Assembly (NCBI GenBank): GCA_017434555.1
Contig: JAFRFB010000010.1
Location: 1 to 36,732, forward strand
Source: Methanobrevibacter sp.
Lineage (GTDB): Archaea; Methanobacteriota; Methanobacteria; Methanobacteriales; Methanobacteriaceae
Length of the DNA stretch: 36,732 nt
Direction: 5' to 3'
The notes under the pieces are model-generated. The model was not told the origin of the DNA. It saw only the letters and a list, made by a program, of their open reading frames with translations, and made no database searches. Of the stretch, positions 21,976 to 36,732 are shown piece after piece; the stretch's first letter is position 1; every line of letters starts with the position of its first letter. The translations under genes were made by a program, and so were the position numbers.

Positions 21976-22602
21976 TTATGGATTATAGACATCTATTGTC
22001 CATTCTCCATCAAAAACAGTAGCACAAGAAGTTACCGGTTTTTCATAATCGGCAAAAGTGCCCTCATCAAAAATAAATTTCGCAGCTTCACTTGAAGTTT
22101 TAGCGTCAAAATCAACCGGATCAGGTACCTGACTACCGTATGTTGATATGAAAGCCGCTTCTCCATAAGGCACTTCTTCAACCAGCAATTTTTTATCACT
22201 GACAATTCCAATGAAACACTCGTATTCATCCTCTTTATCTGAAGACGTTACAACACCAGCAATTCTTGGAGTATTATAATCATCTTTTTCATAATCCATT
22301 GTAAGCAATGAATATGCCAACGCATCTTTAATGTTCATTCCCAAAGCGATTTTATCGGCAATCACATCGGTATGAGAACCGTTTGATATGATTGCTGTAT
22401 CGCCAACAATCTGAAGACTGTTATATGCGATATAGGTATTTTTATAAATATCCTTTTCAAAACCTTCCTTTGGAACAACGGCCGCTCTGGTATCGAATCC
22501 CTGACATTGCCTGTTTGGAAATGACCTGCTTGATACCCTGTATGCAGCAAATGGCTTTCCATCACTATTCATTCCAACTGATAATATCCTCCCAGTATAC
22601 AT
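21976..22602 (-). CDS. purO: Archaeal IMP cyclohydrolase (PurO)
   Basis: PurO closes the ring of FAICAR to form IMP, the last step of purine synthesis in many methanogens, replacing the bacterial PurH cyclohydrolase domain. The N-terminus [10 protein letters not shown], then [19 protein letters not shown] and T-P-R-I-A-G-V are typical, and the 208 residues match the family. The gene lies 25 bases before cofE in the direction of transcription and after exbD, so it probably belongs to a long minus-strand transcript. GTP from this pathway feeds arfA next door. Confidence 0.94.
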
Positions 22603-22617
22603 ACAATCTCTCCTAAA

Positions 22618-23028
22618 TTAGGTTTTTGGACGTTGAACAGCTTTATCCGGACTAATGCCATCAGGAGTAACGATAACAATCTCTCCCGGCCTAATCGATA
22701 CTTGTCCTTCATCCATAACTCGCGCCTGAACTCCTATAGCACCGTTTGCAATGGCGTCTGATCTGTCGACACCGTTAACGGTTACCTTGTGGAGATTGGC
22801 AACAGGCACAATATAATACTCGGCGTTACCTGAAGTGTCAGTCACATTCGGCTTACCTGTAGCGCCACTGTCTGTAGCGTCCATCGGTGAGTCGACAGCT
22901 GAAAAATTACTGGTAACGACTAGAAAAATCATTATTGTAAATAAAATATCAATAAATGGAACTAGATTAATGTTCGGTTTCTGGTCATGCAAAAACCTTT
23001 TTTTATATGATTTAACGTCAATTGCCAT
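22618..23028 (-). CDS. ExbD/TolR-family proton-channel subunit
   Basis: The protein has the ExbD plan: a short cytoplasmic N-terminus, one membrane helix with the essential proton-carrying aspartate (V-P-F-I-D-I-L-F-T-I-M-I-F-L-V-V, about residues 23-38) and an external domain of about 95 residues. The outer part starts with a Ser/Thr/Asp-rich linker and shows V-T-V-N-G-V and V-S-I-R-P-G-E-I-V-I-V strands like ExbD. I start at ATG 23028, which has a weak GTGGT before it; a GTG abutting the exbB stop (23037) would add three residues. It is paired with exbB. No TonB-like or Tol-Pal gene is in the window, and Methanobacteriales lack an outer membrane, so the partner that receives the force is unknown. 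Confidence 0.86.
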   Translation of the reverse strand: MAIDVKSYKKRFLHDQKPNINLVPFIDILFTIMIFLVVTSNFSAVDSPMDATDSGATGKPNVTDTSGNAEYYIVPVANLHKVTVNGVDRSDAIANGAIGVQARVMDEGQVSIRPGEIVIVTPDGISPDKAVQRPKT

Positions 23029-23037
23029 ATTAACCAC

Positions 23038-23877
23038 TTATTGTCTTAATTTACTCTCTGTAATTTCTGCATTCACATTACATTTCTCTAAAATAATGTT
23101 GGAAATACTTTTGTCCAACATACTCGGTTTAAACGAAACCTTGATATTTGCATAAGGGTCTGAAATCAGTCTTGTATTTACAACACCCTCCGCTTCCTGA
23201 AGTGCCGCAACAGCACATTCAACATTAGCTTCCACTCTCACTTTTACAACAGCGAATCCCCAGTTGGTCATTTTTGTAGCAAGTTCGATTTTATCCATTT
23301 CCACTTCAATAAGTCCTTGAATATAAGTATAAATTGGTAAAAGAACAATAACAACAAGAAGACCCATGATTGTAGTGGTAAGTGCTACATAAATACCTTC
23401 AGCCATTGCAGCTGAATTAGGATTAACACCTAATGACTTGAATGTCATCCAGATACCGATAACGGTACCGATTAATCCAATAAAAGGAGCAAGTTCAGTA
23501 ATAGTTTTGATGGTGTTTAAACCTTTAGTCATTTTAGCGACTTCAACAATGAAAATCTGTTCCATACTTTCCTCAACTTCTGTCTTGTTTTTATAACCTA
23601 TCTTTAAAGTTTCAGAAATAATACGGGAAACAGGATTTTTAAATCGGTTGATCTGTTTTAAAGCTTCAACAGCACCTCCCCTTTCCATAGAGGCGGTTAC
23701 GACACCGAAAATCTCGGTGGTATCAACACGACTAATTTTTCTAAGATATGCAATCTTTCTTAGGGCAATAATAAGACCATAGATACCTATGAAAAGAATT
23801 ATATAAGTGATAACTCCTCCTTGGGTAAAAAGGTCCATTATCCCATCGAAGAATGGCGAAATATACTCTATAATCAT
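23038..23877 (-). CDS. MotA/TolQ/ExbB-family proton channel with extra C-terminal domain
   Basis: ExbB-type proteins form a pentamer around ExbD and turn proton flow into mechanical movement. Here the first helix is at about 15-37. After a cytoplasmic loop come the two conserved helices: A-P-F-I-G-L-I-G-T-V-I-G-I-W-M-T-F (about 129-145) and A-L-T-T-T-I-M-G-L-L-V-V-I (about 164-180). The typical family ends soon after, but this protein continues for about 80 residues in a predicted beta-alpha-beta-beta-alpha-beta pattern (V-V-K-V-R-V, helix, V-V-N-T-R-L, I-K-V-S-F, helix, V-N-A-E-I). I start at ATG 23877, with GAGGAT four bases upstream; an ATG at 23889 has no site. It abuts exbD. Confidence 0.87.
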   Translation of the reverse strand: MIIEYISPFFDGIMDLFTQGGVITYIILFIGIYGLIIALRKIAYLRKISRVDTTEIFGVVTASMERGGAVEALKQINRFKNPVSRIISETLKIGYKNKTEVEESMEQIFIVEVAKMTKGLNTIKTITELAPFIGLIGTVIGIWMTFKSLGVNPNSAAMAEGIYVALTTTIMGLLVVIVLLPIYTYIQGLIEVEMDKIELATKMTNWGFAVVKVRVEANVECAVAALQEAEGVVNTRLISDPYANIKVSFKPSMLDKSISNIILEKCNVNAEITESKLRQ

Positions 23878-24007
23878 ATTTATCCTCATTTAATTTATAT
23901 AAAATAATCTTTTATAAGATTAATATATTTGTTCATATACTTAAAAATAGCTATTTTGAATATCAAATAAGAGAAGTTAAATTATTTGATTTTTATATGA
24001 TAAAAAA

Positions 24008-24643
24008 TCAGATTAAAGTTGTCTGAACATCTTTCAGTTTTGCAACTGTTGACCAGGATTTTCGAACAAAACCGGGCATTTCATTGTATGTATAGTTTGA
24101 GAGGAATTTTTTGGTTGTAGGATCAGACGGATAACCTGAACCTATTCCCCCGACATCTTCAAAATATTTGTTGATTTCAGCTATTGCTTCATCTCTGGTA
24201 TGCTTTGCAATAATTGAAGCTGCACTTACTTCAATGTATTTGTCATCTGCCTTATGTTCGGCGGTAACGTCACATCCTGTTGCCCTTTTAAGTCTGTCCT
24301 CAAACCTTTGTGGCTTGACGTCAACTGCATCGACGATGGCCTTGTCAAAATCAAGCTTTTCCAAAAGTTCCTGCATTCCCTTGCGCTCGATTTCATTTAA
24401 ATTGACACCCTTTGCTCTAAGCTCGTCAATGTCCTGGGCGGAGTATATCACCGTGTCATAATCAAACATTTTCTTGAGTTTGCGGGATAGGACTTCTCTT
24501 CTTTTTGGGGTTAATTTCTTTGAGTCCTTAACACCCATATTATCTAAAACAGCTTCTTTTCGTTTGTCAATAACAACGCCGGCAATAACTAGTGGGCCTA
24601 AAACAGAACCTCGCCCTGCCTCATCAATGCCTAAAATATTCAT
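24008..24643 (-). CDS. rnhB: Ribonuclease HII
   Basis: RNase HII cuts the RNA strand of RNA-DNA hybrids, removing misincorporated ribonucleotides and primers. The catalytic carboxylates are in place: Asp7 and Glu8 (G-I-D-E-A-G-R-G), the Asp in V-D-A-V-D-V and the Asp of A-D-D-K-Y-I-E-V-S-A-A-S-I-I-A-K. The tyrosine of the G-S-G-Y-P-S-D-P motif follows. I place the start at ATG 24643; a TTG nine bases upstream is possible, and neither has a clear ribosome binding site. The protein has 211 residues, typical for archaeal RNase HII. It lies between the exbB and mreB-like genes in the same direction, with 130 AT-rich bases before exbB. Confidence 0.95.
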   Translation of the reverse strand: MNILGIDEAGRGSVLGPLVIAGVVIDKRKEAVLDNMGVKDSKKLTPKRREVLSRKLKKMFDYDTVIYSAQDIDELRAKGVNLNEIERKGMQELLEKLDFDKAIVDAVDVKPQRFEDRLKRATGCDVTAEHKADDKYIEVSAASIIAKHTRDEAIAEINKYFEDVGGIGSGYPSDPTTKKFLSNYTYNEMPGFVRKSWSTVAKLKDVQTTLI

Positions 24644-24684
24644 ATTTATCAAAAAAAATTAAAAAAAGAAATAATTAATTAAAA

Positions 24685-25758
24685 TTATTTCATAGCTCTT
24701 AAACGTACTTCCGGTTCTAATGCAAGTGGTTCTGCTGCAACGATAGCAGTTCCTTTTGCAACAACGGTCATTGGATCGTCTGAGATTTCAATTGGAATGC
24801 CGATTTCATCGAAGATTCTTTCTTTAATACCTCTGAGTCTTGAACTTCCTCCAACTGCAACAGCGTTGTTGTATACACCCATCATTAATTCCGGAGATAA
24901 TCTTTCCAATATTACGTTTAAACCGTCAACAATGTCCTGCATGAACGGTTCAACTGCGTCTGCTACAAGCATAGAGTCGATTACTACTTTTTTAGGTCTG
25001 TTAGTTTCTAGGGATTTTCCGATTACTTCAACACTTAAGTTTTCAAGCTGTTCTGAACAGTGGACCATACCAACTTCCATTTTTGCAGATTCTGCATCAT
25101 GAATACCAATTGCTACATCGTATTTTTCTGCTACGAGCTCTACTATTTTATTGTCGATGTCATCTCCACCGCATCTTACGGTTTCGATATCATTAATACC
25201 TCCAAGAGAAATGATTACAATATCAGTTGAACCTGCTCCGATATCAACAACCATTGTACCGTTTGGTTCAGCTATAGGAAGTCCAGCACCGATAGCTGCT
25301 GCGAGACCTTCACTGATTACAAGAATATTTTGTGCACCTGCTTTTCTTCCGATTTCTTCAGCAGCGTTTTTTTCTACTTCAGATGCATCACCAGGAATAC
25401 CAATAACGATTCTTCCAACGCTTTCTCCTTCATTGATACCAATTTGCATTGCTTTAATGAGTAAAGCCTGTGCCTGTACAACGTTTTCAATTACACCTTT
25501 TTTAAGTGGTCTTACTGCAAGAATATCTTCAGGAGTTCTTCCTAACATTTTTTTAGCTTCTTCACCGACAGCTAAAACTTCACTTGGATCGTCTTTTTTA
25601 ACTGCAACGACAGATGGAATTTGGTATAAATCAAATTTGTCACCTGACGGTTTGGCTATAACCGTGTTTAAAGTTCCTAAATCTATCCCTAAACTATTAC
25701 TAATAACTCTGGTATCGACAATTTCTTGTTCTTCCTCATCATTTCCGAAAATATTCAT
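24685..25758 (-). CDS. MreB-like actin-fold protein
   Basis: MreB is the actin homolog that guides wall growth in rod-shaped bacteria, and Methanobacteriales are among the few archaea carrying MreB-like proteins. The ATPase motifs are clear: phosphate-1 G-I-D-L-G-T-L-N-T (24-32), phosphate-2 V-V-D-I-G-A-G-S-T-D-I (170-180) and the adenosine motif A-V-G-G-S-S-R-L-R-G (about 300-309). MreB-specific blocks are also present (A-V-G-E-E-A-K-K-M-L-G-R-T-P, R-P-L-K-K-G-V-I, A-A-A-I-G-A-G-L-P-I). An acidic N-terminal tail (residues 5-15) replaces the amphipathic membrane helix of many bacterial MreBs. It is directly downstream of an unknown gene with a two-base gap. No MreC, MreD or RodA gene is here. 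Confidence 0.88.
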   Translation of the reverse strand: MNIFGNDEEEQEIVDTRVISNSLGIDLGTLNTVIAKPSGDKFDLYQIPSVVAVKKDDPSEVLAVGEEAKKMLGRTPEDILAVRPLKKGVIENVVQAQALLIKAMQIGINEGESVGRIVIGIPGDASEVEKNAAEEIGRKAGAQNILVISEGLAAAIGAGLPIAEPNGTMVVDIGAGSTDIVIISLGGINDIETVRCGGDDIDNKIVELVAEKYDVAIGIHDAESAKMEVGMVHCSEQLENLSVEVIGKSLETNRPKKVVIDSMLVADAVEPFMQDIVDGLNVILERLSPELMMGVYNNAVAVGGSSRLRGIKERIFDEIGIPIEISDDPMTVVAKGTAIVAAEPLALEPEVRLRAMK

Positions 25759-25760
25759 GA

Positions 25761-26399
25761 CTAATCCTCCGTTATAATATCTTTAAAATCTATAACAAAT
25801 ATTTTATTAGATGTAGCAATACTTTGAACCTTTTCAACGTCTTCATCATTTTCCACTGAAATGAGTATGGTTGACAAAACAACCTCATTTGCATTGTAAA
25901 ATGGTTTTAAAGCGGACTTAACGAAACGTGGCAGTTTAACATCATCATTAATTTCCACATCAATGAATCCCGTGGTCTGTGATTCCTGTAAAATCGCAAA
26001 TGGAATTCTTGATTTTTCAATGATGGAGACTGAGTCTCTTATTACATCATCGGGAGCGACAAACACCATCAATTTTGATCCTTCGTTAATGTAGAAGTGG
26101 GAAACTTTAATGTATGCCCCGCCTCTGGAAAGGCTGGTTCTTCCGAATTCCTCGATTCGTCTTGAATTACCATACAACATGATGAAATCAAATTTTTTGG
26201 ATAATTTGCCTTCAGTTAATGAAACATGTTCACGAAATAGAATTTTTACACTGTTCTTGGAGGCTATAGCCTTATAGGCTACATCGTCGATTAAATCGAC
26301 GTTACCTGCAATTATGCACCAAATATCATCATCGATTGACTTATCGTCTGAATTTATTCGTGCGGCCTGTCTAAGCATTCGTATATTATCTTCTATCAT
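25761..26399 (-). CDS. Unrecognised alpha/beta protein co-transcribed with the MreB-like gene
   Basis: I do not recognise this 212-residue protein. It is soluble, charged, without membrane helix or signal peptide, and alternates predicted strands and helices in two or three similar-looking stretches: I-W-C-I-I-A-G-N-V; F-D-F-I-M-L-Y-G-N; L-M-V-F-V-A-P-D-D; V-L-S-T-I-L-I-S-V; and I-F-V-I-D-F near the end. This suggests a Rossmann-like or phospholipase-D-like sandwich, but no catalytic motif is evident; a single R-R-I-E-E-F-G-R-T-S-L-S-R-G-G segment in the middle stands out as basic. Its stop is two bases from the mreB-like ATG, so the products are probably made together and may interact. A sensor, regulator or filament partner is conceivable. 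Confidence 0.7.
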   Translation of the reverse strand: MIEDNIRMLRQAARINSDDKSIDDDIWCIIAGNVDLIDDVAYKAIASKNSVKILFREHVSLTEGKLSKKFDFIMLYGNSRRIEEFGRTSLSRGGAYIKVSHFYINEGSKLMVFVAPDDVIRDSVSIIEKSRIPFAILQESQTTGFIDVEINDDVKLPRFVKSALKPFYNANEVVLSTILISVENDEDVEKVQSIATSNKIFVIDFKDIITED

Positions 26400-26830
26400 T
26401 TAACTACTCACAATTTCATTAATATAAGTTTCAAATACATTTAATTAATAGTTAAATTAATTAAAAACCCCAAATTAGCTTTAAAATTATCGCTGAAATA
26501 AGGCACTATTAATTAAGGTCTAACAATATTAAATTACTTTAAATTATTATATATATTTTGTCTTTAATCAAAAAGAATTTATTTTAGAAAGCAATTTTTA
26601 CCACCTAAAGCAATTTTTTTAACCTATTAAAAAATTCTTATTTTAGAAAAAATAACCTCATAAGATTTAAAATTTAATAAATAAGTAATTATAATCTTTT
26701 ATATAAGTTAAACTTAATAATGAAGATGTTAATAGTAATATTAAAGCTTTTTAGAAATTTTTTAAAAAACTTTTCTAAGTCTTTGCTTTTAGCGACACTT
26801 AGAATCAAAAAAAGTTAGTGAGGCTTTATT
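26400..26830. promoter_or_regulatory. Divergent intergenic region between the MreB operon and the sortase operon
   Basis: This 431-base, very AT-rich stretch holds no gene I can support. On the plus side, a TATA box (TTTTATATAAG, about 26697-26707) would start transcription near 26730 and give a leader of about 100 bases. That leader has an imperfect inverted repeat (TTAGAAA...TTTCTAA, 26751-26778) around a TTTTTTAAAAAA core. The ribosome binding site GTGAGG precedes ATG 26831. On the minus side, TATATATAAT (about 26541-26551) and a nearer TTATATTAA (about 26419-26427) could each serve the MreB operon. Confidence 0.45.
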
Positions 26831-27994
26831 ATGAAAAAAGAAAATAAACCGTCCTACCCGAAAGGATTTGGTGAACTGAATGACTTAAAAAATCAAGAAA
26901 TTCCAAGACCGAAACTGAAAGAAAAAGAAGAATTGACTCCCATTGAAAAATTTAATGAGAAATTAAGAACATTATTTAAAGACAAAGGTAACTATAGCGT
27001 CAATGATGAGAAAAAAAGAAAAATCGGAAAAATTATCATGACAATAATCGTCCTGACACTTATCATTTCAGCATACTACTTCCTTATTTATGAACCTGCA
27101 CAGCAGGAGCTGAACGAGGCAAAAACCGCAAAGCTCAATGAACTTCATGGCCTTTACAAAGGACCGATGGCCGATGCAGGGTCTGTTTTTAAAATTGAAG
27201 GCGAAATAAATGATGCAAAAAGCCTTTATGATGTTGAATCCATCAACGTTGAAAAGCAGGCCACCGCAGACTGGAAGAAGTTTCACATTAATGCAATACA
27301 CAGAAACACCGACCAGTTCAACCGGACAATGGAAGTTTATGAAAACAACTCAAGAAACATTATAATGCCCGCTTCAGAAGCAATAGATTTTGTAAACGGA
27401 AATACTGCACATAAACTCTGTGAAGTGACATTTGAAAAGCCGAATACAGTTTCAGTTCCGATACTCGTTTCACGTCTTCAGGCAGGAGCCGGACTTGTAA
27501 ATGTCGGAAGCATTGTGGATATCTATAAAAACAACAACAATAGCTATTTCAATGATTCGGCCGACTTGAATAAAAGTGAAGCCGACGTCAGCGGATGTAC
27601 GGTTTTATCCATCATGAGATATGAGGACAATGGAGAAATTGAATCAGAATATACTAAAGGAAATACAATTGTTCAGGGAAATAACACGAATCCCAATGAA
27701 AACTCACAGACATTTTCCTCAAACGTTCTTGAAATGCTTAAGGGAGCCATAATAAACGGCTATGATGAAAAATCAACCGTGGACATGCTCAACAGCTACG
27801 GAGTTAAGCTGTCAAATTATGAAAGGCAAATCAATTTAGGTGATCTGGATGCTGAATATATGCTTTTGCTTGAAGTGCCGCAGGACAAGGTCAATTTTAT
27901 CATAACAAATATGGACAGCATTGTTCTGACGATTCCAACCACAAAGGCACCATCATGGATGGCAGGTGAAATATCATCAACATATACAGGATAG
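26831..27994 (+). CDS. Membrane-anchored extracytoplasmic protein (DUF515/SAF-like)
   Basis: The 387-residue protein begins with a charged, proline- and lysine-rich cytoplasmic tail of about 62 residues. One membrane helix follows (about 66-87), then a large outside domain with a coiled segment (90-175). At about 205-232 the string V-S-V-P-I-L-V-S-R-L-Q-A-G-A-G-L-V-N-V-G-S-I-V-D-I-Y (given here as single letters of one strand-loop-strand unit) resembles the SAF/CpaB-like part of pilus-assembly proteins. I think it belongs to the methanogen family DUF515. It heads an operon with a sortase 36 bases downstream. A structural or assembly role in surface appendages or the wall is plausible but not demonstrated. 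Confidence 0.7.
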   Translation: MKKENKPSYPKGFGELNDLKNQEIPRPKLKEKEELTPIEKFNEKLRTLFKDKGNYSVNDEKKRKIGKIIMTIIVLTLIISAYYFLIYEPAQQELNEAKTAKLNELHGLYKGPMADAGSVFKIEGEINDAKSLYDVESINVEKQATADWKKFHINAIHRNTDQFNRTMEVYENNSRNIIMPASEAIDFVNGNTAHKLCEVTFEKPNTVSVPILVSRLQAGAGLVNVGSIVDIYKNNNNSYFNDSADLNKSEADVSGCTVLSIMRYEDNGEIESEYTKGNTIVQGNNTNPNENSQTFSSNVLEMLKGAIINGYDEKSTVDMLNSYGVKLSNYERQINLGDLDAEYMLLLEVPQDKVNFIITNMDSIVLTIPTTKAPSWMAGEISSTYTG

Positions 27995-28030
27995 AAAAGT
28001 TATATTAATTATATAAACAAAAATGATACC

Positions 28031-28753
28031 ATGAATAAATCAATTATTTCAACAGCTATTGTAATCATTTGTATTGTAATAATAGGTTTATATGCCGCAG
28101 GAGAGGTAAATTACTTTTCTCACAAAACAGTGACCGAGAAAAACATCACATCTCCGGTAGTAATTATTGATAAAGTCGGAATCAATGAAAAAATCAATAA
28201 TGAAAGCCTATCTTTAGGAGTAATGACTGATGAAAGGTCATCAACCCCTACACATGGGGACGTGGTTCTTTTTGGACACAGGACCCTTCAGGGCTCACCA
28301 TTCCTAAGGCTTAATGAACTTGCAGAGGGAGACACAATTACTCTTGAATGGCCTGAAATCGGTGAGGTAAACTATACTGTTACAAATCAAAAGATAGTGC
28401 CTGCAACATATAAACTGAATTTAAATGAAAGCGGAAATCATATTATGCTTATTACCTGTGACCCAATCGGTTCAACCGCAAACAGACTGATTATTGAAGG
28501 TGAACAGAGTAATGTCAGCGGAATAAATGAAAAGATAGTTCACGACAATCCGAAAGCATCATATGCATGGATTATAAGTGCAGCATTTTTAATTATCGGT
28601 CTGGCAGTTGCATTCATTTATCCGAAAGAGTCAAGAATATATATTCTTGCTAGCGTTTTGATAATATCTGCAATTCTTTTTTACTTCTGTTTCAATCCGA
28701 TATCTTCGCAGATAATCTATGACAACATCATATTCCTGAATGGAGGACTTTAA
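28031..28753 (+). CDS. Archaeal sortase-family transpeptidase
   Basis: Sortases cut a C-terminal signal of surface proteins and join them to the wall or to each other. This 240-residue protein has an N-terminal membrane helix (5-24) and an outside sortase beta-barrel with the full catalytic triad: His83 (L-F-G-H-R-T), Cys143 (L-I-T-C-D-P) and Arg152 (T-A-N-R-L-I). The C-terminus has two more membrane helices (about 176-198 and 202-224), as in class D/E-like archaeal and some bacterial sortases. It follows the DUF515/SAF-like gene, its likely partner or substrate. Its stop abuts the ATG of mptD. The natural substrates are unknown; the DUF11 protein at the end of the window is a candidate. Confidence 0.9.
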   Translation: MNKSIISTAIVIICIVIIGLYAAGEVNYFSHKTVTEKNITSPVVIIDKVGINEKINNESLSLGVMTDERSSTPTHGDVVLFGHRTLQGSPFLRLNELAEGDTITLEWPEIGEVNYTVTNQKIVPATYKLNLNESGNHIMLITCDPIGSTANRLIIEGEQSNVSGINEKIVHDNPKASYAWIISAAFLIIGLAVAFIYPKESRIYILASVLIISAILFYFCFNPISSQIIYDNIIFLNGGL

Positions 28754-29107
28754 ATGGACGTTAATGAAAAATATTTCTCAAACATAACTCCCCGTGAACG
28801 TGCAATATTTGAAGGAGGAATCAGTATGGGCGCCCTCTTTCACCAGTTTGTTGGAACTCCTGTCAATGCCCAGACAAAAGAAGGCCTTGAACGCACAATC
28901 GAGGAATCATTTAAACTTCAGCCTGCAATTGAGGACGTTGAGGTTAAAATCAATTTAACCGACAACACTGAATTCGACTACATTTCACTTTCAGGAGATA
29001 TGCTTGACGTGAGGATTCACACAGTGGTTGATGATGTGCGAGCGGTAATTAGAATAGAGTTTATTGAAGAGCTTAACTATCCTTTGATGTATGTTGAGGA
29101 AATCTAA
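28754..29107 (+). CDS. mptD: Archaeal dihydroneopterin aldolase (MptD)
   Basis: MptD converts 7,8-dihydroneopterin to 6-hydroxymethyl-7,8-dihydropterin and glycolaldehyde, a step to tetrahydromethanopterin, the C1 carrier of methanogens. The 117 residues show the family features [19 protein letters not shown], the [17 protein letters not shown] stretch and the C-terminal E-L-N-Y-P-L-M-Y-V. The ATG follows the sortase stop without a gap. GGAGG (28742-28746) lies within the sortase end, so translation is coupled although the functions look unrelated. The last four bases overlap the end of convergent mfnA, another coenzyme gene. Confidence 0.82.
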
Positions 29108-33305: not shown

Positions 33306-36300
33306 TTAGTGTTTACGTCTTCTTAAAGGCACGAGTGCAAAGATAATCAATAACAACATGAATATTGGGTTACCTGTAGCTTTAGTGTCGATAGGGACTT
33401 GTTCAGGCTCTTCAGGCACAACAGGTTCAACGTGAGTTTCATTAATTGAAACACTTGCGTTAGCACTTACGTTTCCTGTCATGTTGGATCCTGCAATAAC
33501 AACATTAGTAACATTTGCAGCTTTAGTAGCGTTACATACAATAGTAAAGCTTACGCTTTCACCAGCAGCGAGAGTGCCGGAGTATATGTATCTATTGCCG
33601 TCTTTAGTCCATCCGTTACCATTGAAACTAATGAATTCCAATGCATCCGGAAGTTCATCTATAACAAAGATGTCTCCAAGAGTACAGTCACCAGTGTTTC
33701 TTACAGTTATAGTGAATACAACTGCATCACCGATGTTGACTGATGCTTTGTCAACGACTTTAGTTACATCGATGCCCGGGACAATTACGACAGTAGTATT
33801 GTTTGAATAAGCTCTTGCAGTAGCATTACTAGTTAAGTTGGATCCTGCAACTACTTCAGGTACAAAGGTACCTCCTCTGGTAGTATCGAAGTATAAAGTG
33901 TAATTTGCAGATTCACCAGGAGCTAATGAAACACCGTATAAGAATCTGTTACCTTCTTTAGTCCACAAGTCACCAGTAAATTCTGTGTATGTTAAACCTT
34001 CAGGGAAGAAGTTATCCACATGGACTGCACCTAATAAACAGTCACCGTCATTTGTAACAACGACAGTGAAACTTACAGGTTGTCCTACGATAACACTAGG
34101 AGTATTAGATATTATACGAACAGTTAAGTTCGGAGTGTAAACTAATACGCTGTCCTGTGCGGTTTTATTTGCTACACCATCGGCACCAGCGGTTATTACA
34201 TTTGTGAAATTGCCTGACACGGTAGTGTTTACGACAACTATTAATTGAACACTTTCACCAACAGCTAAAGAACCGTTATAATAGAACTTGGTTCCATTTA
34301 CAGTCCAGTTAGAGCCGATGAAACTGTCATAAACTAATCCTTCAGGAATTATTTCATCAATGAACAATTCGTTGAGCTCGATATCACCGGTATTTGTAAC
34401 GTTAATTACAAAGCTTGTCTGATTACCGGAGTAAACAAATTCGTCTAAAGCGGTTTTTACAACAGATAAATCCGGACGATTTACGATAACACTTACATTG
34501 CTTTGTTTAACTACAGTTTCTTCTGTACAGTTTACTGTAGCAGTATTGACAAAAGTACCGTTAGTTAAAGCTTCAACAACAATCCATACAGTGTATGATT
34601 CGTTATCAGCAATACAGTCAATATTCCATACTAATTTGTCGCCATCCATAGTGAAAGCTTCACTGTAATCTTTTACTTCAAATGCGGAAGTATCTAAGAT
34701 ATCGCTAATTATAACACCGGTAGCATCTGATATACCATGGTTATAAACGACAATTGTGAAGTTTATAAGTTTTCCAACGATTGTGGAATTGACATCAGAG
34801 ACTTTTATGATTTTTAAATCTGGGTTATATACATCAACTGTAGCATTAGCGGATTTTTCAGTGCTGTTTTCATAACAGGATACGTATACGACATTTGTGA
34901 AATGACTTGACCTGAGTGTTCTAGCTTTGATAGTGAAATCAAATGACTCGTTGATTCCTAAGAACGGAATTACGTAAGTCAAATTACCTTCAACTAATTC
35001 TAAACCTTCAGGAAGAACATCCCTAATTGTAACGTTAGTAGCATTGGAAGGACCTTTATTAGTAACTGTAATGTTAAATGTAGCTATATCACCTATTCCA
35101 TAATCATCTCCATCTACGACTTTAACGACATCCAAATTAACCTCATAATGTGCTTCAACAGTATCGTTACTGTGTTGATTTGTAGGTTCTTCTGTACAGT
35201 TTACAGAAGCGACATTGTCAAATGTACCGTTGGTTTTGACTCTGACTTGTACCCAAGTACTGTAGCTTTGCTCGGAAGCTAAATTGCCAACATACCAAAT
35301 GATGTTTTGACCGTTGCGTACGTAATTACCGCCAGCAGCGATAAATTCGAATGCATCATCCAATACATCTGTAATGTTAACATTTGTTGCTTGAGCTTTA
35401 CCGTGGTTTCTGATATCCACAGTGAAGTTGACTAAATCATTGACGAGCACTGAATGTACATCAGCAGTCTTGTTGATTTTAATATCAGTCGTGAATACTC
35501 CAACTGTAGCGTTTGCAGATTTAACTGTGCTGTTTTCATAACAGGATACGGATACTTCATTTGTGAAGTAGCCTAAACTTGTGGTTTTAGCTTTAACTGT
35601 GAATGTGTAAGTTTCGCCAGGAGCTAATGAAATAACTTGGCTCAAATTACCTTCAACTAATTCTAAACCATCAGGTAATACATCCTCAATAGTAACGTTG
35701 GTAGCATTGGACCTGCCGTTATTGGTAACATCAATAGTGAAAGTCACTTCATCACCAACAATGGTATCAGCAAAGTCAACGACTTTTGTAATGTCTAGGA
35801 CAACGTCATATACAGCTTCAACGGAATCGTTATCTTCCTGTAATGTAGGTTCTTCACTACAGTTTACATAAGCAATGTTATCAAATGTACCGTTAGCTTT
35901 AACTCTGACCTGTACCCAAGTAGTGTAGGTCTGCTCAGGAGCTAAAGATCCGACATTCCAGATGATTTCCTGGCCGTTACGTACGTAATTGCCTCCAGCT
36001 GCAACAAACTCGAATGCATCATCTAAAGTATCATAGATTCTGACATTAGTAGCGCGAAGACCACCGTGATCACGAATAACTATAGTAAAGTTAACCAAAT
36101 CGTTAACGAGTACTGAATTAACGTCAGCGGTCTTGTTGATTTTAATATCAGTTACGAATACTCTGACAGTTGCATTATCTGTTTTGACAGTGTCATTTTC
36201 ATAACATTTTACTGAAACGACATTTGTGAAGTTACCTAACCTTGTGGTTTTAGCTTTAACTGTGAATGTGTAATTAGCGCCACTTTCTAAGAGTTTGAGA

Positions 36301-36732
36301 ACGTGGGTTAAATTACCTTCAACTAAAGTTAAACCTTCCGGAAGGACATCTTCAATTACGACATTTGTAGCGTTGGACGGACCATTATTAGTAACTGTAA
36401 TAGTGAAAGTCACTTCATCACCAACAATAGCGTCATCATAATCAACTACTTTTGTAATGTCTAAATTCAAGAGATATTTAGCTTCAACAGTGTCATTGTC
36501 CTCTACAACAGTTGTGTTTTCACTGCAGTTAACACCAGCAATGTTTTCGAAAGTACCATTGGTTTTAACTCTAACCTGAACCCAAGTAGTGTAGGTTTCG
36601 TTAGCAGCCAATTCCTTAATGTTCCAAACGATTTTTTGACCATCTCTGGTGTAGTTGCCTCCAGCATTGACAATTTCAAATGCATTTACTAACTCATCAG
36701 CAATAATAACGTCAGTAGCACGAACAATACCG
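33306..36732 (-). CDS. Adhesin-like surface protein with DUF11 repeats (5' end cut by window)
   Basis: The reading frame is open from the window edge to the stop at 33306: 1141 residues without the N-terminus. The protein is a chain of roughly ten immunoglobulin-like DUF11 units of about 100-115 residues, each with D-(I/L)-x-(I/V)-x-K-x-x-D, V-G-D-x-V-T-F-T-I-x-V-T-N-x-G, A-T-N-V and (L/V)-P-(E/D)-G-L signatures. Two unit types alternate in the first half. It is very rich in Asn-x-Ser/Thr sequons and poor in lysine clusters, fitting a glycosylated outside protein. The C-terminus has a P-E-E-P-E spacer, T-G-N-P, a hydrophobic helix and R-R-R-K-H, a likely anchoring or sorting signal. The TTG/Leu at 36611 is internal, not the start. 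Such proteins are abundant in Methanobrevibacter and thought to mediate adhesion. Confidence 0.9.
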   Translation of the reverse strand, partial: GIVRATDVIIADELVNAFEIVNAGGNYTRDGQKIVWNIKELAANETYTTWVQVRVKTNGTFENIAGVNCSENTTVVEDNDTVEAKYLLNLDITKVVDYDDAIVGDEVTFTITVTNNGPSNATNVVIEDVLPEGLTLVEGNLTHVLKLLESGANYTFTVKAKTTRLGNFTNVVSVKCYENDTVKTDNATVRVFVTDIKINKTADVNSVLVNDLVNFTIVIRDHGGLRATNVRIYDTLDDAFEFVAAGGNYVRNGQEIIWNVGSLAPEQTYTTWVQVRVKANGTFDNIAYVNCSEEPTLQEDNDSVEAVYDVVLDITKVVDFADTIVGDEVTFTIDVTNNGRSNATNVTIEDVLPDGLELVEGNLSQVISLAPGETYTFTVKAKTTSLGYFTNEVSVSCYENSTVKSANATVGVFTTDIKINKTADVHSVLVNDLVNFTVDIRNHGKAQATNVNITDVLDDAFEFIAAGGNYVRNGQNIIWYVGNLASEQSYSTWVQVRVKTNGTFDNVASVNCTEEPTNQHSNDTVEAHYEVNLDVVKVVDGDDYGIGDIATFNITVTNKGPSNATNVTIRDVLPEGLELVEGNLTYVIPFLGINESFDFTIKARTLRSSHFTNVVYVSCYENSTEKSANATVDVYNPDLKIIKVSDVNSTIVGKLINFTIVVYNHGISDATGVIISDILDTSAFEVKDYSEAFTMDGDKLVWNIDCIADNESYTVWIVVEALTNGTFVNTATVNCTEETVVKQSNVSVIVNRPDLSVVKTALDEFVYSGNQTSFVINVTNTGDIELNELFIDEIIPEGLVYDSFIGSNWTVNGTKFYYNGSLAVGESVQLIVVVNTTVSGNFTNVITAGADGVANKTAQDSVLVYTPNLTVRIISNTPSVIVGQPVSFTVVVTNDGDCLLGAVHVDNFFPEGLTYTEFTGDLWTKEGNRFLYGVSLAPGESANYTLYFDTTRGGTFVPEVVAGSNLTSNATARAYSNNTTVVIVPGIDVTKVVDKASVNIGDAVVFTITVRNTGDCTLGDIFVIDELPDALEFISFNGNGWTKDGNRYIYSGTLAAGESVSFTIVCNATKAANVTNVVIAGSNMTGNVSANASVSINETHVEPVVPEEPEQVPIDTKATGNPIFMLLLIIFALVPLRRRKH
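34844..36732 (-). repeat. Tandem ~666-bp (222-codon) repeats in the adhesin gene
   Basis: The tryptophan codon of the W-V-Q-V-R-V-K segment recurs at 36582-36584, 35916-35918 and 35253-35255, giving periods of 666 and 663 bases. Each period holds one A-type and one B-type DUF11 unit and is strongly similar at DNA level. The last copy diverges in its B unit. The array continues beyond the window edge. Confidence 0.85.

Follow-up and report, generated by a model that had tools for sequence, protein, structure and literature searches.

The window analysed here is positions 1 to 36,732 of contig JAFRFB010000010.1 (Methanobrevibacter sp.), from a genome of 3.15 Mb that is 99.5% complete and whose closest relatives in the named collection were uncultured Methanobrevibacter. 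The locus under study, at 22,618 to 28,753, encodes an ExbB/ExbD pair, RNase HII, MreB, a 212-residue protein of no known family (hereafter the partner), a DUF515 protein and a sortase (Table 1). The original prediction had placed all of these here and joined them, RNase HII apart, into a possible envelope machine. Their identities and positions were confirmed with Pfam and NCBIfam, as were its statements that RNase HII sits among them and that the two halves are divergent; the RNase HII gene lies between mreB and exbB. Our analysis concerns which of these genes form a functional unit.

Gene content and order

Inspection of open reading frames in the window gave clean frames for the named genes. 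Tight coupling is seen for exbB-exbD (0 bp) and partner-mreB (2 bp). The remaining minus-strand gaps are 32 bp (mreB-rnhB), 118 bp (rnhB-exbB) and 15 bp (exbD-purO); on the plus strand DUF515 and sortase genes are 36 bp apart and the sortase gene directly adjoins DHNA (0 bp). Translation of exbD (called start GTG) and of exbB and rnhB (both TTG) may begin some codons further in than called, and for exbD and exbB alignments favoured internal ATGs as starts. The neighbourhood extends past the noted region at both ends, with purO-cofE-cofD beyond exbD and DHNA-mfnA beyond the sortase gene.

Table 1. Genes and intergenic region of the locus, with the basis of each assignment
Feature	Coordinates	Strand	Basis and remarks
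purO, IMP cyclohydrolase	21976..22602	-	Pfam/NCBIfam; housekeeping gene at the edge
exbD	22618..23037	-	Pfam PF02472; N-terminal transmembrane segment, invariant Asp30
exbB, TolQ/ExbB/MotA-type proton-channel subunit	23038..23889	-	PF01618; extra C-terminal domain
rnhB, RNase HII	24008..24652	-	Pfam/NCBIfam, 181 bits; housekeeping
mreB, 357 aa	24685..25758	-	PF06723; among solved structures, closest to MreB of Caulobacter and of Thermotoga
partner gene, 212 aa, no known family	25761..26399	-	No Pfam, NCBIfam or PDB sequence match; structure model
Divergent intergenic region, 431 bp	26400..26830	.	In relatives holds a CDP-alcohol phosphatidyltransferase gene, in some also a phosphatidylserine decarboxylase gene
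DUF515 protein	26831..27994	+	PF04415; single membrane span at the N terminus, CpaB/RcpC-like part outside the cytoplasm
Sortase	28031..28753	+	PF04203; catalytic H83, C143, R152
DHNA, dihydroneopterin aldolase-type	28754..29107	+	PF04038; housekeeping neighbour

Gene order was read in 20 loci from many genera of Methanobacteriales. The order purO-exbD-exbB-rnhB-mreB-partner / ptrans-DUF515-sortase-DHNA, in which ptrans is the CDP-alcohol phosphatidyltransferase gene present between the partner gene and DUF515 in most relatives, was kept as far as the Methanothermobacter families. The comparison called for by the original prediction therefore found conservation well beyond close relatives, through Methanobacteriales. 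purO-exbBD was inverted in loci L071 and L072, and partner-mreB was relocated as one block in L073. cofE, cofD and a GTP-cyclohydrolase-III-type gene, all housekeeping, were equally order-conserved across the loci read, and synteny alone is therefore weak evidence for joint function.

The tight coupling of mreB to the unrecognised protein, as originally claimed, was seen in every family sampled. Almost all of the contiguous loci read have the partner gene beside mreB, and these span Methanobrevibacter, Methanothermobacter and G150, a complete genome (1,243,342 bp, the size of Methanothermus fervidus) of another order in the same class. Genome G147 carries two tandem mreB genes (L096:10784-13118) with the partner gene ∼7 kb away (named record match L148, Candidatus Methanoflexus mossambicus), and a similar distance of ∼7 kb separates partner and mreB in Methanobrevibacter curvatus (L076).

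Two further local variations were recorded. The ptrans gene (archaetidylserine-synthase-like) and the phosphatidylserine decarboxylase gene are absent from 26400-26830 in the window and from the same spot in the near relative L064; this applies to that spot only. In genomes of the Methanobacterium and Methanothermobacter types, a gene for an unknown-family protein of 306-323 residues separates DUF515 from the sortase gene (L080:10712-11662, L074:12450-13370, L082:11115-12086); it was not found at that spot in Methanobrevibacter.

Gene loss in Methanosphaera and separation of ExbB/ExbD from MreB

Presence and absence were surveyed in 150 genomes of the order, 20 of them from genus g3, identified as Methanosphaera (cocci). 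The set included M. smithii PS (G008), M. thermautotrophicus Delta-H (G017), M. ruminantium M1 (G025) and M. stadtmanae (G020, 1,767,403 bp). mreB was absent from 20/20 Methanosphaera genomes, which gave at most DnaK-level matches near 1e-14, and the partner and sortase genes were absent from the same 20. exbB and DUF515 were retained in all 20, and rnhB, the next gene along, was retained where mreB and partner were lost. In ten Methanosphaera loci ptrans adjoins rnhB and DUF515 adjoins DHNA, corresponding to two clean excisions with the rest of the order intact. Outside Methanosphaera the partner was present in 116/130 genomes (116/150 overall) and true mreB in 117/130. The genomes without them are incomplete assemblies, several lacking the whole locus (G101, G118 and G086 among them); in G056 and G117, also incomplete, the locus breaks between contigs.

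The genus Methanosphaera, whose cells are coccoid, branches from among rod-shaped Methanobacterium (PMC13135261). Mur-ligase-domain matches numbered 6-8 in each of the four Methanosphaera genomes tested; these genomes keep Mur ligases and therefore the wall pathway remains. That M. stadtmanae has no sortase was already known, as a published table gives its number as zero.

Separation also occurred in the opposite direction. In G150 partner, mreB and rnhB are adjacent and exbB is absent; in genus g13 exbB was found in 0/6 genomes and partner and mreB together in 4/6. Since ExbB occurs without MreB in Methanosphaera and MreB occurs without ExbB in G150 and g13, an obligate ExbBD-MreB machine is excluded in these lineages. 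Independent scattering of homologues, which the original prediction had named as evidence against itself, was thus found for ExbBD, while gene order is widely conserved.

The mreB-partner-DUF515-sortase group has been described before as cluster C by Lupo et al. (2025), comprising OG0000094 (MreB), OG0001176 (a coiled-coil protein), OG0001177 (RcpC/CpaB) and OG0001178 (sortase E), and was present in all five of their pseudomurein species, Methanopyrus included (PMC11915815). OG0001176 is equivalent to the partner and OG0001177 to DUF515. The genes and the bidirectional layout are the same, and mreB always follows OG0001176. Those authors considered cluster C probably unrelated to the pseudomurein wall and discussed cell shape or gene regulation (PMC11915815). 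Their main text names neither Methanosphaera nor ExbBD and gives no partner structure; the clean co-loss in a coccoid genus, the predicted fold of the partner and the uncoupling of ExbBD are new relative to that work.

Properties of the encoded proteins

The MreB of the window matched PF06723 with 323.8 bits against a cut-off of 27, and fell under the stricter cut-offs of the NCBIfam bacterial subfamilies (263 versus 365.75 and 277.6 versus 293). Its actin-type nucleotide motifs, DLGTLNT and DIGAGSTD, align to Caulobacter MreB (4czf, 201.6 bits; best DnaK 57.8), and on these alignments it is a bona fide MreB. A search of five genomes for MreC found none, and RodA/FtsW gave no match above cut-off in the genomes searched. 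A review agrees on missing MreC and RodA in these archaea, and states that MreB correlates generally with elongated archaea and that the role of archaeal MreB is still to be examined (PMC7613921). The system thus shares with the bacterial elongasome (MreBCD-RodZ-RodA-PBP2) a true MreB, by Pfam and PDB sequence matches, and a wall polymer, and differs from it in these absences and in the lineage-specific partner beside mreB.

The structure model of the partner, with a predicted local distance difference test score (pLDDT) of 81.5, starts with a helix, which a weak or flexible linker joins to a pair of ferredoxin-like alpha/beta units. The best fold matches were two-ACT-domain proteins. The first 13 residues, within the predicted helix, are strongly conserved in the alignment. 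A named GTDB scan gave matches only in Methanobacteriales, with search patterns that did not reach Methanopyrus. Kinship with the C-terminal domain of ExbB was rejected (no signal by profile comparison), as was a distant homologue in genus g5 (G033/G024, 594 aa), which lay inside a GlmS-type glutamine-fructose-6-phosphate transaminase and was taken as chance. SepF is the membrane anchor of FtsZ in Methanobrevibacter smithii. The partner resembles it in having a short N-terminal helix, a linker, an alpha/beta domain and a cytoskeletal protein as neighbour, but shows no sequence relation to it and has two alpha/beta units instead of one, and its membrane binding is only putative.

ExbB matched PF01618 with 95.3 bits (cut-off 22.9) and TolQ, ExbB and MotA structures; its extra C-terminal domain (∼residues 212-282) was modelled with moderate confidence as beta-alpha-beta-beta-alpha-beta. 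ExbD matched PF02472 with 30.3 bits (cut-off 25.4) over residues 18-49, corresponding to profile positions 3-34 of 128 only, and D30 in its transmembrane segment was invariant in 17 aligned sequences. The canonical periplasmic ExbD/TolR domain was not matched in Pfam, NCBIfam equivalogs were far under cut-off, and the OmpA-like peptidoglycan-binding domain of MotB was not found in the 139-residue ExbD, for which PF02472 was the sole Pfam match. The pair is therefore like TolQ-TolR, ExbB-ExbD and MotA-MotB in the ExbB channel region and the invariant transmembrane Asp, and unlike them in the predicted ferredoxin-like domain of ExbB, the short non-standard ectodomain of ExbD and the host, as pseudomurein archaea have a single membrane. 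No paper joining ExbB/ExbD with Methanobacteriales was found in the literature searched.

Genome G000, that of the window, encodes two more ExbB-like proteins of 214-215 aa, which lack the C-terminal domain (L167:1657-3374 and L168:1933-3531, contigs C81 and C65). In both places the next gene encodes a short ExbD-like protein of 99-112 aa, presumably DUF2149-like, and ahead of the ExbB-like gene lie genes for a multi-span membrane protein and for a large protein that looks secreted. These loci are possibly a separate surface-protein motor system.

The DUF515 protein matched PF04415 with 58.9 bits (cut-off 29). Its original description as SAF-like found support in relatives only, in which a Methanothermobacter-family DUF515 protein matched RcpC/CpaB PF16976 (E = 5e-7). 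The catalytic residues of the sortase (protein numbering) were invariant in nine aligned sequences. Sortase and DUF515 are separable, Methanosphaera having lost the former and kept the latter. M. stadtmanae has a single N-terminal anchor in 39/42 adhesin-like proteins, and 11 of those of M. smithii are anchored at both ends (PMC11532034); the M. stadtmanae pattern fits loss of C-terminal sorting.

At 33306-36611 of the window an adhesin-like repeat protein has a tail that resembles a sorting signal, with TGNP followed by a hydrophobic segment and then RRRKH. Distinct TGNP tails numbered four in G000 and one in M. smithii; in M. ruminantium they occurred at four places, one of them probably by chance. 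None were found in two Methanosphaera genomes, nor in M. thermautotrophicus, though sortase is present there. As sortase substrates these tails are suggestive at most.

Interpretation of the locus

The locus probably consists of three units, independent of one another and set among housekeeping genes of stable order: a partner-mreB elongation module, a variant ExbBD motor and a DUF515-sortase surface-protein unit. Co-loss of partner and mreB in a coccoid genus, their adjacency and the uncoupled ExbBD identify partner-mreB as the functional unit. We infer a function in cell shape, physical contact between MreB and the partner, and a link to the membrane. MreB would form filaments near the membrane that orient pseudomurein synthesis, and the partner would be a dedicated cytoplasmic MreB cofactor substituting for missing bacterial elongasome parts, its conserved N-terminal helix perhaps tying the filaments to the membrane. 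ExbB/ExbD would be a TolQR/ExbBD-type motor, powered by protons and working at the wall or surface independently of MreB, and DUF515-sortase would attach surface proteins. That the partner is a new kind of archaeal MreB cofactor, acting as a membrane tie or, through its ACT-like fold, as a sensor of wall precursors or metabolites, and forms with MreB an elongation module that has no relation to MreC, MreD, RodZ or RodA, is a more tentative proposal.

Several observations weigh against this interpretation. The loss is one evolutionary event, and the correlation with shape has n=1. Coccoid-rod Methanobrevibacter exist (clade C, with cocci or coccoid rods among its members; PMC13135261) and keep mreB and partner, so that the pair does not simply equal 'rod'; its loss in Methanosphaera is what a role in shape would predict. 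The fold matches of the partner reached a full-length template modelling (TM) score of only 0.26-0.38, and an internal duplication was rejected, the two halves having no sequence relation by profile comparison. Amphipathicity of the N-terminal helix was moderate (shuffle p 0.02-0.28), and known membrane-targeting controls had erratic moment scores, so that this test has little power.

The same single loss, together with synteny of the whole block, housekeeping genes included, would also agree with there being no functional link, with inertia of gene order accounting for every gene, MreB and partner among them, and the Methanosphaera loss incidental to genome change in that lineage. We consider this unlikely, as partner and mreB were not only lost together but also relocated together in L073 and are adjacent in the distant G150 without exbBD, and Methanosphaera kept rnhB while losing the two genes adjacent to it.

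Bacterial MreB has side roles in chromosome segregation, polarity and gene regulation. A role of this kind for MreB-partner, in place of wall growth, would agree with those precedents and with the nearest folds of the partner, which are ACT-type regulatory domains; persistence of the wall ligases in Methanosphaera was counted against it, and occurrence so far only in pseudomurein-bearing lineages together with loss in a coccus is a better fit to shape, making such a role rather improbable.

Least probable is the original proposal of one machine, in which proton energy from ExbB/ExbD powers wall growth guided by MreB, or the assembly of surface proteins, in concert with the partner, DUF515 and sortase, since conserved co-location, envelope-acting protein classes throughout and conserved proton-path residues are outweighed by the two-way dissociation of ExbBD and MreB, which largely rules out its obligate form, and by equal order conservation of rnhB, purO, cofE and cofD. 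After MreB loss the rate ratios of ExbB and ExbD (1.67 and 1.80) were not clearly above those of neighbours (1.07-1.64 for most, 3.70 for gcIII).

The idea that the adjacent ExbB/ExbD must drive the process is thereby corrected. What the locus offers is a specific two-gene candidate for MreB-based shaping in archaea without the other bacterial elongation proteins, for which Methanosphaera is a natural knock-out. If the proposed role of the partner is true, pseudomurein archaea would elongate their cells with a two-protein module.

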